Shown here piece by piece: positions 19,130-64,000 of a stretch of DNA of 64,000 bases. The stretch lies in the NCBI RefSeq assembly GCF_027594505.1, contig NZ_CP115149.1, positions 1,024,812 through 1,088,811 of the forward strand, written 5' to 3'. Positions within the stretch are counted from its first letter, which is position 1; every line of letters starts with the position of its first letter. The position numbers were made by a program, and so were the translations under genes. The notes under the pieces were generated by a model. It had not been told where the DNA came from, made no database searches, and saw only the letters and a program-made list of their open reading frames with translations. This DNA is from Tepidiforma flava (GTDB taxonomy: Bacteria > Chloroflexota > Dehalococcoidia > Tepidiformales > Tepidiformaceae).

Positions 19130-19600
19130 AAGGGGAGGGAAAGGCGGGAAGCGGGAGGCGGGAAGCGGGAAGCGGGAATCGGGAAGCGGGAAGCGGGAGG
19201 CGGGAGGCGGGAGGCGGGAACCGGGAAGCGGGAGGCGGGAGGCGGGAACCGGGAAGCGGGAGGCGGGAGGCGGGAACCGGGAAGCGGGAGGCGGGAAGCG
19301 GGGAGCGGGAGGTGTGAGCTGGTAGGTGGGAGGAGGGAAGCGGGAGTTCGGAGTGGGGAGTTGGGAGGGCGCTCGATTTCGAACGTGGGGGTGGGCTTCC
19401 CGGCCCTCCGCGGGGACGGAGCCCCGCGACGACGGGAGTTGGGAGGCGGGAGGGGACGTCGCTCCGGCGCGGGGCCCGTCAACCCGCGGCCGAATCGCCG
19501 CCCGGCGATGGCTCCCTCCTCCCTCCTCCCTTCTCCCTCTCCCTTCTCCCAACTCGGAACTCCCAACTCCCAACTCCCAACTCCCGGCTGACTGCGCGGT
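19130..19600. repeat. Purine heptad array and hairpin core of the interspersed repeat family
   Basis: Positions 19135-19315 are a degenerate tandem array of about 7-bp units (GCGGGAA, GCGGGAG, CCGGGAA). Positions 19391-19435 hold the shared hairpin core, arms CGCGGGG and CCCCGCG around loop ACGGAG. GGGAGTTGGGAG follows, then a pyrimidine tract (19505-19587, CCCAACTCC-like) complementary to the purine tracts. No convincing gene is visible. Confidence 0.85.
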
Positions 19601-27194: not shown

Positions 27195-27383
27195 AATGAT
27201 ACGGGAAGCGGGAGGCGGGAAGCGGGAGGCGGGAGAAGGGAACCGGGAGGCGGGAGGCGGGAGGCGGGAGGCGGGAGTCGGGAGAAGGGAGGAGGGAGCA
27301 GGGAGGGAGAACAACCTCCAACCTCCAACCTCCAACCTCCAACCTCCAACCTCCAACCTCCAACCTCCAACCTCCAACCTCCA
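27195..27383. repeat. Purine array abutting a (CCTCCAA)n pyrimidine array
   Basis: Positions 27200-27305 are GCGGGAG/GCGGGAA heptads; 27308-27380 hold about ten tandem copies of a 7-bp AACCTCC unit. The two halves are broadly complementary. The array ends 27 bp before the purF -10 box. Confidence 0.85.
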
Positions 27384-27409
27384 CCTCAGCGCCGGAGCGG
27401 AAGGGCCGA

Positions 27410-37527: not shown

Positions 37528-38272
37528 CCGGGAGCCGGGAGCCGGGAGCCGGGAGCAAGATGCTCGTTCTGCGGCGGGGGTGCAAGGCTGCGCCCCCGCC
37601 GTTCGTTGCGGGCGGAAGGGTGGCACGGCTGGCGCCGCGCAGGATGGCTGGACGCCTTCGGCGTCGGCGCCGCCGGATGCCGCCGCACCGCGGCGGCGGA
37701 GGGGGAGGCGGGCCCGGGAGTTGGGAGGTCGGAGTTGGGAGGTGGGAGTTGGGAGGTGGGAGTGAGGCTAAGGGGCGTCCGGGCGCCGTCAACCTCCAAC
37801 CTCCAACCTCCAACCTCCAACCTCCCAACTCCGTAGTCGCGGGGCTCCGTCCCCGCGGGGCGCCATGCGCCCAACGGATGCCCCGGGAACGGGGAACCGG
37901 GAAACGGGAAGCGGGGAGCGGAAACCGCGAGACGGGTGAATTCGAGCGGCCGGGCGGGCCTCGCCGGCCCTCAGCGGGCACGGAGGCCCGCGGCTACGGA
38001 GTTGGGAGGCGGGAGTTGGGAGTTGGGAGAGAGGCCGCGGCGCGTGCCGGGGCCGCCAACCTCCGACCTCCAACCTTCAACCTCCGTCGGTCGTCGCGGG
38101 GCTCCGTCCCCGCGGGGCGCCATGCGCCCAACGGATGTCGCGAGAATCGGGAACCGGGAGGCGGGAAGCGGGGAGTTCGGAATTGGAGTTGAGAGTTGGG
38201 AGTTTTGAGTTTGGAGAGAGGCCGCGGCGCGTGCCGGCGCCGTCAACCTCCAACCTTCAACCTTCAACCTCC
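37528..38272. repeat. Composite interspersed repeats: two inverted hairpin cores with purine and pyrimidine tracts
   Basis: About 745 bp without a convincing gene. Cores lie at 37831-37888 (CTCCGT loop), 37947-37999 (ACGGAG loop, opposite orientation) and 38088-38150 (CTCCGT loop). Purine tracts (GGGAGTTGGGAG) follow the ACGGAG cores and CCTCCAACCTCC tracts precede the CTCCGT cores, so 37947-38150 can fold into one long inverted repeat. A linker GCCGCGGCGCGTGCCGG occurs at 38035 and 38221. Confidence 0.85.
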
Positions 38273-40428: not shown

Positions 40429-41050
40429 CCGGGAGGCGGGAGGCGGGAGTTGGGAGGCGGGGGATTCGAAACGCCGGGGCGGGCCTCCCGGCCCTCCGCG
40501 GGCACGGAGGCCCGCGGCTACGGTGTTGGGAGTTGGGAGACGGGAGCCGGGAGGGGTGTCGGCCTCAAACCTCCAACCTTCAACCTTCAACCTCCAACCT
40601 TCGCCGCGGGGCGCCATGCGCCCAACGGATGTCCCGGGAACCGGGAACCGGGAAGCGGGAAGCGGGAGACGGTGGATTCGAACGCCCGGGTGGGCCTCGC
40701 CGGCCCTCCGCGGGCACGGAGGCCCGCGGCTACGGAAGTAGGAGTTCGGAGTTGGGAGACGGGAGGGGTGTCGGCCTCCAACCTCCAACCTCCAACCTTC
40801 AACCTCCAACCGTAGTCGCGGGGCTCCGTCCCCGCGGGGCGCCATGCGCCCGACGGATGTCCCGGGAGGCGGGAGGCGGGAAGCGGGAGGCGGTGGATTC
40901 GAGACGCCGGGGTGGGCCTCCCGGCCCTCCGCGGGCACGGAGGCCCGCGGCTACGGCCTTGGGAGCCGGGAGGGGGCGTACGGCCGGGGTGCGGCCCGTC
41001 AGCGCCGGGGCGAGACGCCTCCTCCTCCCGGTTCCCTGTCCCCGGTTCCG
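40429..41050. repeat. Composite interspersed repeats, about 205-220-bp period
   Basis: ACGGAG-loop cores at about 40476, 40680 and 40900 alternate with CTCCGT-loop or truncated cores at about 40604 and 40811. Purine tracts (GTTGGGAGACGGGAG) and pyrimidine tracts (CCTCCAACCTTCAACC) fill the gaps. The linker GGGGTGTCGGCCTC occurs twice (near 40555 and 40767). No gene is supported here. Confidence 0.88.
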
Positions 41051-44045: not shown

Positions 44046-44151
44046 GGCAAAACCTCCTGGCGATGCCGTCGTGGGGCCGCGCCGCCGCCTCCGGGGAGGA
44101 GGGCCGGCGGGCCTGTTCGGATTCCGGGGAGGGCCGGGGCGGTGCCCTCCG

Positions 44152-44268
44152 AACGCCTGCGGGGTTAGCTGACGGGTTCGGCGTCGGAAGTCGCCTATGC
44201 GCCTGCTCGCGCAATACACCCCAGGGAGTGGGTCCCCCGCCCCCGCCGGCTGCGGCGGGGTTCGGCAT
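44152..44268 (-). ncRNA. c-di-AMP riboswitch (ydaO-yuaA type)
   Basis: Read on the minus strand the leader shows the conserved ydaO order: GCCGAACCCCG at the 5' end, GCGGGGGACCCAC, CTGGGGTGTATTGCGC, a variable stem, then ACGCCGAACCCGTCAGC and AGCTAACCCCGCAGGCGT at the 3' end. The terminal GCC/GGC helix (P1) closes. GC-rich stems between 44060 and 44140 could be the expression platform before the AGGAGG of the downstream gene. The family binds two c-di-AMP and usually turns genes off. Confidence 0.88.
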
Positions 44269-44358
44269 CAGTCACCGTAGCACGAGCGGGGCGCGGTGTG
44301 TGCTACGAACTGCCCGTTTCGGCGTTGCAATCGCATAACAAACGGCGCCGCGGGCGGC

Positions 44359-58017: not shown

Positions 58018-58345
58018 GAGGGGACGGAGGCTGGAGGTTGGAGGTTGGAGGTTGAAGGTTGGAGGTTGAAGGTTGGAGGTTGTTTCCCCTCCCCGTTTCC
58101 CAGCTCCGATCTCCGTACTCCCAACTCCCAACTCCCATCTCCCATCTCCCATCTCCCATCTCCCGCCTCCCGGTTCCCGCTTTCCGGTTCCCGCTTCCCG
58201 TGGACATCGGTTGGGCGCATGGCGCCCCGCGAGGACGGAGCCCCGCGATTACGGCTGGAGGTTGACGGCAGCCCGCACGGGCGCACGCTCTCTCCCACCT
58301 CCCAACTCCTCACTCCCCGCCGCGGGCGGTGCGCCCGCGCCATCC
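58018..58345. repeat. Composite interspersed repeat
   Basis: The purine tract GGAGGTTGGAGGTTGGAGG (58030-58080) faces a pyrimidine tract (58090-58200, CCCAACTCCCATCTCCC-like). The hairpin core with loop ACGGAG lies at 58209-58256, joined to GGTTGGGCGCATGGCGCC, which is the reverse complement of the flank found beside CTCCGT cores at 37831 and 40811. Confidence 0.85.
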
Positions 58346-59310: not shown

Positions 59311-60147
59311 ATGGCGACGCCCTTCCTGAAGTGGGCCGGGGGCAAGGCGCGGCTGGTGCCGACGGTGGCCGCCGGGCTGGAGGGGCTGCGGGTCGAGCGG
59401 TACATCGAGCCGTTCCTCGGCGGGGGCGCGATGTTCTTCGGGCTGCGGGCGCTCGGGCTGCGGACGCCGGCCATCCTCGCCGATGCGAACCCCGAGCTGA
59501 TCGCGACCTTCGCAGCCGTGCGCGATGACGTCGATGGGGTGATTCGCGCGCTGGAGCCGCTGGCCGAGGCGTACCTCGCTGCCGACCGGACGGGGCGGCG
59601 GGAGCTGTACTACCGGGTGCGGGCGTGCGAGCCGGCGGCGGCTGCCGCGCGGGCGGCGCGGGTGATCTTCCTCAACCACACCTGCTACAACGGGCTCTAC
59701 CGGGTGAACCGGCGAGGCCGCTTCAATGTGCCGCACGGCCGGTACGCGCGGCCGCGCATCCTGGACGAGGCCAACCTCCGGGCCTGCGCGGCGGAGCTGG
59801 CGGATGCGGAGCTGCGGTGCGCCGATTTCGCCGAGGTGTGCGCGGAGGCCGGGCCGGGCGATTTCGTCTACCTCGACCCGCCCTACCACCCGCTGAGCGC
59901 GACGGCGAACTTCACGGCGTACACGGACCGGGCGTTCGGCTGGTCCGACCAGGAGCGGCTGGCGGCGGCGGTGCGGGGGCTCGCCGCGCGCGGGGCGTGG
60001 TTCGCGCTCTCGAACTCGGCCCACCCGGCCATCGCGGCGCTGTACGAAGGGCTTCGGCCGCGGGTGGTGCAGATGTCGCGCGCCATCAATTCGAAGGCGA
60101 ACGGCCGGGCGCCGGTGGCGGAGTACCTCTTCGGCAACGTGGGGTGA
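59311..60147 (+). CDS. Dam-type DNA adenine methyltransferase (D12 class)
   Basis: A 278-residue N6-adenine methylase. Motif X/I is MATPFLKWAGGKARLVPTV and YIEPFLGGGAMFFGLRALG; motif IV is DPPY (189-192) followed by HPLSATANFTAYTDRAFGW. The recognition part keeps the FNVPHGRY segment typical of the Dam/M.DpnII group, so GATC is the likely site (inference). No restriction endonuclease is adjacent. It is followed by repeat DNA. Confidence 0.9.
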   Translation: MATPFLKWAGGKARLVPTVAAGLEGLRVERYIEPFLGGGAMFFGLRALGLRTPAILADANPELIATFAAVRDDVDGVIRALEPLAEAYLAADRTGRRELYYRVRACEPAAAAARAARVIFLNHTCYNGLYRVNRRGRFNVPHGRYARPRILDEANLRACAAELADAELRCADFAEVCAEAGPGDFVYLDPPYHPLSATANFTAYTDRAFGWSDQERLAAAVRGLAARGAWFALSNSAHPAIAALYEGLRPRVVQMSRAINSKANGRAPVAEYLFGNVG

Positions 60148-60440
60148 GGCGGCGGGATGCCGCGGGCTGGCCGCCCGCGGCGGGGGATGGCTCGCCGCCG
60201 GCGGCGGCATCGCCGCGGGATGCCGGCGCTCCGCGCCGGCGGTGGAGGGGGGAGGGGGAGTTGGGAGATGGGAGTTGGGAGTTGCGAACGGGGAGGCGGG
60301 AGCACCGGCGCCAGTGAACGCGAACGCCCGGGTGGGCCTCGCCGGCCCTCCGCGGGGGCGGAGCCCCGCGGCTGCGGAGTCGGGAGTTGGGAGTTGGGAG
60401 GCGGGAACGGGGAGCACCCACCTCCAACCTCTACCCTCCT
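60148..60440. repeat. Composite interspersed repeat with a second hairpin module
   Basis: Positions 60153-60245 hold GGATGCCGCGGGCTGGCC and CGCCCGCGGCGGG plus GGCGGCATCGCCGCGGGATG, a module repeated at about 63745-63845. Positions 60322-60381 are the ACGGAG-loop core. A purine tract (GGGAGTTGGGAGGCGGG) and a short CCTCCAACC tract follow. No gene here. Confidence 0.82.
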
Positions 60441-63714: not shown

Positions 63715-64000
63715 GGGAACCGGGAGGCGGGAGCCGGGGAGCGGGATGCCGCGGGCTGGCCGCCCGCGGCGCGGGACGGCCCGCTGTCTTCGGCGGCATC
63801 GCCGCGGGATGCCGCCGCTCTGCGCCGGCGGTGGAAGGGGCGGCAGGAGGGGGAGGGGGCAACACCTAACCTGCAGGCTCCAACTTCCAACCGGGGCGGA
63901 GGATGAGGGAGGCGGGGTGGCCGCGGGGCCCCGTCCCCGCGGACGCCAACGCGCCGACCGGATGCCCCGGGGAACCGGCACGCGGGAAGCGGGAGAGGGG
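63715..64000. repeat. Composite interspersed repeat, to the window end
   Basis: GGATGCCGCGGGCTGGCC (63747-63764) and GGCGGCATCGCCGCGGGATG repeat the module of 60153-60245. A short pyrimidine tract (CTCCAACTTCCAACC) follows, then a degenerate core at 63917-63970 with GGATGCCCCGGGGAACCGG. No gene. Confidence 0.8.

Follow-up and report, generated by a model that had tools for sequence, protein, structure and literature searches.

What are the long inverted repeats that recur in one stretch of the chromosome of the hot-spring bacterium Tepidiforma flava (Chloroflexota, Dehalococcoidia), and how did they come to lie where they do? The stretch, hereafter the window, is 64,000 nucleotides long and covers positions 1024812-1088811 of a genome (G000) assembled as one contig of 2,767,986 bases. 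The original prediction had seen in it a composite interspersed element forming long inverted repeats, which we judge to be right, and had added that no known name, be it repetitive extragenic palindrome (REP), bacterial interspersed mosaic element (BIME), or clustered regularly interspaced short palindromic repeat (CRISPR), fits the layout, a statement that did not survive. Going by their sequence, the units classify as GTAG-tagged REPs (PMC3733652), laid out as inverted REP dimers, or REPINs (PMC3116915), in BIME-like arrays. We consider it likely that the hairpin cores are GTAG-type REPINs that were formerly mobile by way of a REP-associated tyrosine transposase (RAYT) and that colonized G-rich heptamer minisatellites in the zone around the replication terminus. 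The element class is known, and what is new is its geography, namely, confinement to the terminus zone and polarity relative to replication, within heptamer arrays that exist elsewhere without REPs. We found no described REP family with this confinement and orientation in open papers, the nearest case being the mirrored arrays of Pseudomonas fluorescens SBW25 (PMC3116915).

The REP units are of two types, T1 and T2, built on the common part GTAG-Y-CGCGGG[G/C]-CTCCGT-[C/G]CCCGCG. In T1, this part is followed by a second hairpin, GGGCGC-CAT-GCGCCC, and then by AACGGATG, and in T2, it is followed by the hairpin GGGCC-GGCGA-GGCCC and then ACCC. The GTAG head is exact in 72 of the 94 typed copies. 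Stem pairing is conserved; specifically, 10 of 30 distinct T2 sequences carry a double change from G-C to C-G at the loop-closing pair that preserves the stem, and T2 stem cells are paired at 97.7%, versus 42-55% in slid controls. A T1 unit and an inverted T2 unit are linked at their tails by (GGGAANC/GGGAGNC)n, and the resulting element runs from GTAG to CTAC. Neighboring elements are placed head to head, with (GGGAGTT)n and (CCTCCAA)n in between; inverted T1/T2 pairs occur in both arrangements, at spacings that differ with linker length. Both originally predicted stems (CGCGGGG/CCCCGCG and CGCGGGC/GCCCGCG), their CTCCGT loop, and the purine tract and its complement joining facing cores, here the (GGGAGTT)n and (CCTCCAA)n tracts, were confirmed.

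The similarity among copies, which might have reflected base composition only, does not: the window holds 11 core matches (at most 3 mismatches, GTAG head included) against 0.00 in 100 dinucleotide shuffles, and the genome holds 97 (48 forward, 49 reverse) against 1 with a reversed control pattern. When whole copies were folded as RNA, 37947-38150 and 40680-40868, each proposed earlier to form one hairpin, indeed gave single long hairpins (-122.7 kcal/mol, z score -2.3, and -114.6 kcal/mol, z score -4.3, respectively), and the REPIN at 40812-40954 folded as single-stranded DNA (ssDNA) at -51.9 kcal/mol (z score -3.35). A CRISPR was rejected on layout, given that successive units switch orientation and are spaced by heptamer repeats; cas genes were not searched. 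An Rfam scan of the window returned only a c-di-AMP riboswitch and one tRNA, and the repeats match no family. Comparisons were made with the sister species Tepidiforma sp. KatS3mg064 (G002) and with further Tepidiforma genomes (G001, G003, G004, and G005, of which G001 and G005 are drafts). The copies and tracts of the window are as follows (window positions):

19145-19330, + strand: heptamer array of the tail-linker type, (GGGAAGC/GGGAACC/GGGAGGC)n, on the leading strand (sequence, motif scan)
19389-19433, - strand: single T2-type REP with a GTCG head and heptamer tracts on both sides (65.6 bits)
27203-27386, + strand: core-free heptamer array, (GGGAAGC/GGGAGGC)n then (CCTCCAA)n (motif scan, comparison with G002)
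37717-37832, + strand: (GGGAGTT/GGGAGGT)n tract, a center, and a (CCTCCAA)n tract running into the first REP
37833-37880, + strand: T1-type REP, comprising GTAGT, CGCGGGG-CTCCGT-CCCCGCG, GGGCGC-CAT-GCGCCC, and AACGGATG
37881-37951, + strand: tail linker, GGGAACC/GGGAAGC-like, joining T1 to the inverted T2
37952-37997, - strand: T2-type REP, comprising GTAGC, CGCGGGC-CTCCGT-GCCCGCT, and GGGCC-GGCGA-GGCCC
37998-38085, + strand: head-to-head linker of (GGGAGTT)n, a GC-rich center, and (CCTCCAA)n
38090-38137, + strand: T1-type REP with a GTCG head
40477-40521, - strand: T2-type REP (68.1 bits)
40603-40631, + strand: remnant of a T1-type REP without GTAG and the first hairpin (sequence)
40688-40733, - strand: T2-type REP (75.4 bits)
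40734-40811, + strand: head-to-head linker, a purine tract then (CCTCCAA)n
40812-40859, + strand: T1-type REP
40812-40954, + strand: complete REPIN of T1, tail linker, and inverted T2 (ssDNA fold)
40910-40954, - strand: T2-type REP, the closing end of that REPIN (72.5 bits)
58032-58204, - strand: heptamer tracts of a reversed array (GGTTGGA on +, GGGAGTT on -)
58205-58252, - strand: T1-type REP with a decayed GTAA head and reversed polarity; the G003 site is empty
60257-60402, + strand: (GGGAGTT)n, a T2-type REP at 60330-60375 on the - strand, and (GGGAGTT)n
63917-63960, + strand: diverged T1-like REP with a GTGG head, its T2 partner just beyond the window edge

The polarity of the copy at 58.2 kb is opposite to that of the other window copies. 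The array of G002 that matches 27203-27386 holds a REPIN.

REP and REPIN families are usually distributed chromosome-wide. To place the T. flava family on its chromosome, we read 0.82 Mb of G000 directly and covered the remaining genome by pattern and profile searches, with gene calls from our own two-model codon-usage procedure. The GC skew of G000 turns negative near 1.2 Mb and positive again at about 2.3-2.4 Mb. Codon usage splits leading- from lagging-strand genes near-perfectly and switches where the skew does, the stretch at 1.16-1.26 Mb being mixed. The terminus, placed by these two signals, is near 1.21 Mb; no dif site was found in the G000 stretches examined. The underlying codon bias is itself very strong in sampled G000, with leading-strand genes favoring G-ending codons and lagging-strand genes C-ending codons and with almost no exceptions except in the terminus and origin zones.

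All 97 copies lie within 736,117-1,734,339, reaching about 0.47 Mb to one side of the terminus and 0.52 Mb to the other, as emerged from a genome-wide pattern search. The chance that 25 clusters (10 kb merging) would all fall in one such arc is about 6e-10, and in a 348-kb sample from beyond the core zone, a covariance search returned no copy at E<0.1. The copies form 40 clusters, some with near-identical tandem units, and every cluster (40/40) sits between predicted genes with no gene overlap. This upholds, and extends to the genome, the earlier claim that copies occur only between genes, except that one of the sites it listed, at 27.2 kb, consists of heptamer tracts and has no core. In a core scan of the genome collection, the only other genome with matches was G002, whose exact core matches fall on contigs 2, 3, and 5 only.

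Within this zone, unit orientation follows replication. To the left of the terminus, T1 units number 17 on the + strand and 2 on the - strand and T2 units 26 on - and 1 on +, and to the right, the signs are exchanged (T1, 19 - and 1 +; T2, 27 + and 1 -). Orientation thereby matches the replication direction in 89/94 typed units and, counted by cluster, in 37/40 (p 2e-8); in G002, 22 of 27 loci are oriented in accord with the local GC skew. The exceptions in G000 amount to three clusters, at 802.1, 1083.0 (window 58.2 kb), and 1597.6 kb, of which the outer two mirror one another about 1199.9 kb. Clusters occupy convergent, divergent, and co-directional gaps alike, and their orientation flips at the terminus regardless of the flanking genes. 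Thus, transcription does not account for the polarity, and we rejected the idea that it is a by-product of gene orientation.

The same gene contexts bear on whether the hairpins are mainly RNA elements, acting as transcription terminators or mRNA 3' stabilizers between genes. Such roles are known for REPs elsewhere (PMC3733652), the hairpins are strong, and the clusters are enriched in convergent gaps (13/40 versus 13/138), but 11 of the 40 clusters lie between divergent genes, orientation tracks replication rather than transcription, 64% of the genome is without any copy, and termination has no need of a GTAG head. We regard this explanation as very unlikely, and a pure terminator as the main role was rejected on the divergent gaps and the gene-independent polarity.

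What, then, holds the REPs to the terminus zone? The REPs are embedded in heptamer minisatellites, in which the leading strand reads (GGGAGNN)n and the lagging strand carries TTGGAGG-type tracts. Such arrays also occur alone. G003 and G004 carry arrays of (GGGAGCT)n and (GGGAGCR)n around their termini, with a polarity like that in G000, and 604 kb of these two genomes yielded no convincing REP core. Among the matches listed for G004, which extend to 1500 kb, 95 of 96 heptamer matches at 378-1204 kb are on the + strand, and from 1304 kb on, they are on the - strand, with the GC skew flipping at about 1.24 Mb; no heptamer arrays were present in samples taken from 1.6-2.4 Mb and from 0-0.3 Mb. 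Among those listed for G003, the heptamer strand flips between 368 and 576 kb, coinciding with the skew flip. No heptamer arrays were seen in the drafts G001 and G005. Leading-strand bias and terminus enrichment of the arrays were found in four species, with a heptamer that differs by species (GGGAGTT, GGGAGCT, or GGGAGCR), and in the sampled stretches, heptamer-derived octamers outside arrays showed no more than the general skew. Arrays of tracts without REPs also exist within G000, for instance at 641, 699, 859, and 1052 kb, and comparison of copy positions between G000 and G002 showed that REPINs differ at matching tracts, being present in G002 where G000 has the tract only (1052 and 1602 kb). 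Given that REP-free arrays share the confinement and polarity, these properties belong to the heptamer arrays. The REPINs most likely entered the arrays later, in the lineage of G000 and G002, and probably inherited terminus confinement from them.

Could the arrays instead be functional landmarks, with leading-strand heptamers working like the FtsK orienting polar sequences (KOPS) or architecture imparting sequences (AIMS) that orient FtsK/SpoIIIE, and with REPINs tolerated or recruited as extra sites? Four species share the confinement and the leading polarity, and where contigs could be placed, their termini lie at differing coordinates. G000 encodes an FtsK whose gamma domain would be the part to bind the arrays. 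In Escherichia coli, FtsK is active in a zone of ~400 kb around dif (PMC3140498), and AIMS are octamers of the leading strand whose density rises towards the terminus (PMC5993296). The likeness to AIMS and KOPS (PMC5993296, PMC3140498) extends to leading-strand polarity and the terminus zone, but those are dispersed octamers, whereas the G000 arrays are intergenic minisatellites with hairpins. Further, the heptamer varies across species, scattered KOPS-like or heptamer-derived octamers outside the arrays are unremarkable, the arrays are indel-rich, two members of the genus (both drafts) are without arrays, and a dif site was not found in the stretches examined. We hold a landmark function to be unlikely. 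The same low standing applies to its fullest form, in which Tepidiforma would mark ~1 Mb around the terminus with replication-polar G3-heptamer arrays that direct FtsK translocation, segregation, or fork convergence, REPINs having been drawn in and their polarity kept by selection; were it true, a selfish REP family would have become part of the map of the terminus domain.

A second route to confinement and polarity would be descent only, in which local recombination and mirror inversions, without transposition, would have multiplied one polar array of the terminus zone. Five synteny breaks between G000 and G002 fall inside arrays (802/1597, 1044/1402, 897/1549, 1103/1314, and 1102/1314 kb), with midpoints at 1.200-1.223 Mb; on this comparison, the arrays are the recombination points for inversions about the terminus. 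Inversions of this kind, being symmetric about the terminus, preserve polarity. Descent would also be in line with the tandem, near-identical units and with the mirrored tandem REP arrays on opposite genome sides in SBW25 (PMC3116915). Against it, the 40 clusters lie at unrelated intergenic sites and include isolated single units, and at matching tracts, one species has REPs that the other lacks. We consider descent without transposition improbable, to about the same degree as a landmark function. Elsewhere in G002 (contig 3, 94.3-97.0 kb; L035/L036), REP arrays flank a pair of ABC-transporter-like genes that G000 lacks at the corresponding position, and the segment was possibly gained or lost between arrays.

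The preferred reading, of REPINs once mobile with a RAYT, draws on relatives outside the genus. GTAG-tagged REPs are a described superfamily that includes Chloroflexi and forms head-to-head and tail-to-tail dimers, often heterodimers (PMC3733652), and RAYT proteins read the GTAG motif and require it for cleavage (PMC8266576); the literature cited for the GTAG REPIN reading also includes PMC6006769. RAYT-bearing relatives were found among Dehalococcoidia (locus/genome L118/G008, L084/G026, L096/G021, L095/G043, and L078/G011). At L118, L084, and L096, in other genera of the same family, RAYT-like Y1 transposase genes are bracketed by GTAG hairpins of like design in inverted orientation, with GTAGCCGCGGGCCACCGTGCCCGCA on both sides of the RAYT of L118. 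The RAYT of L095, from another family of the same class, likewise lies between inverted GTAG hairpins, and at L078, GTAG hairpins of mixed orientation stand on both sides. A covariance model built from the T2 units matched the RAYT flanks of L118 and L084 unprompted, and the RAYT proteins of L118, L084, L096, and L078 match the NCBIfam model for the REP-associated tyrosine transposase (REP_Tyr_transpos) at 1e-17 to 1e-21, below the model cut-off. No RAYT was found in six Tepidiforma genomes with PF01797, NF047646, or a relative's RAYT protein (P0001), E. coli matches serving as the positive control for the PF01797 and NF047646 searches. The copies of G000 look orphaned, their RAYT gone from the genus, and we infer past mobilization from the RAYT-flanking hairpins of the relatives. 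Across the five RAYT loci, the stem sequences of the flanking hairpins differ, and the loci form a set for the study of RAYT-REP co-evolution.

Set beside described systems, the T. flava units share with the GTAG superfamily (PMC3733652) a GTAG beside a short GC palindrome, high copy number, intergenic sites, inverted two-type dimers, and convergent-gap enrichment, and differ in having a second hairpin each, heptamer minisatellite spacers, terminus confinement, orientation with replication, and no RAYT in the genus. They resemble the REPIN/RAYT system (PMC3116915, PMC8266576) in the inverted REP pair as the unit and in the inverted GTAG hairpins that flank RAYT genes in the family, whereas their genome has no RAYT and their unit, with a T1 end and a T2 end, is asymmetric and follows replication in its polarity. 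E. coli BIMEs, compared in general layout alone, have alternating REPs, differing linkers, and intergenic clusters in common with them, but other REP sequences and other linkers. SBW25 (PMC3116915; repeat deserts, PMC2718517) also has large REP-free regions, but these are scattered deserts, with few arrays and no single terminus-centered domain holding every copy.

Under the preferred reading, the REPINs would be non-autonomous miniature elements once moved as ssDNA by a RAYT, a Y1 HUH transposase, very probably at replication forks. After loss of the RAYT, orphan copies would change mainly through local duplication, deletion, and recombination. Confinement would have been taken over from the heptamer arrays, tracts first and REPINs later, and REPIN polarity would best be accounted for by strand-specific insertion into ssDNA together with mirror-symmetric inversions about the terminus. 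As for the accumulation at the terminus, relaxed selection in late-replicating intergenic DNA would be a likelier cause than a dedicated function.

Several observations weigh against this reading. First, no RAYT is present in the genus, so that mobilization is not demonstrable in this lineage. Second, no target-site duplication or clean insertion boundary is readable, the tracts being too fluid and indel-rich; boundaries sought from the empty sites of G003 were likewise not readable, with intergenic DNA too diverged. Third, REP-free tracts are equally confined, and RAYT insertion bias alone is thus insufficient to explain confinement. Fourth, background G-rich octamers are already 92-98% leading-strand in G000, which makes the polarity of G tracts alone weak evidence and undercuts it as the mark of a special signal; better evidence of polarity comes from the lagging-strand GGTTGGAGG tract and from the REPs. 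Finally, the convergent-gap enrichment also fits a terminator role for some REPs.

The system separates two questions that are usually mixed, namely, whether such repeats follow replication through their mode of insertion, as ssDNA at forks, or through a need of the chromosome for polar terminus marks. Tepidiforma species offer tracts with REPs, tracts only, and, in the drafts, neither, and cultured type strains exist. The genus also provides a clear case in which orphan REPs have outlived the transposase and in which mirror-symmetric inversions have their breakpoints in REP arrays.

Other features of the window include a second intergenic GC-rich repeat (GGATGCCGCGGGC...GCCCGCGGCGGGGGATGGCTGGCCGCCTTCGGCGGCGGCGCCG...), which often adjoins REP arrays and is found at 37610-37700, 60155-60245, and 63740-63835, as well as near 1468670 of G000. 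Between 27400 and 37500, leading-strand genes appear as short broken open reading frames, such as HAMP-domain and methyl-accepting chemotaxis protein (MCP)-like pieces in different frames at 36.0-37.5 kb; with a completeness of 91.7% for G000, versus 98% for two sister genomes, these breaks may reflect frameshift errors in the assembly. The c-di-AMP riboswitch (ydaO/yuaA) lies at 44140-44277 on the minus strand, and a gene for a D12-class adenine DNA methyltransferase (59311-60144, +) adjoins the array at 60.2 kb.
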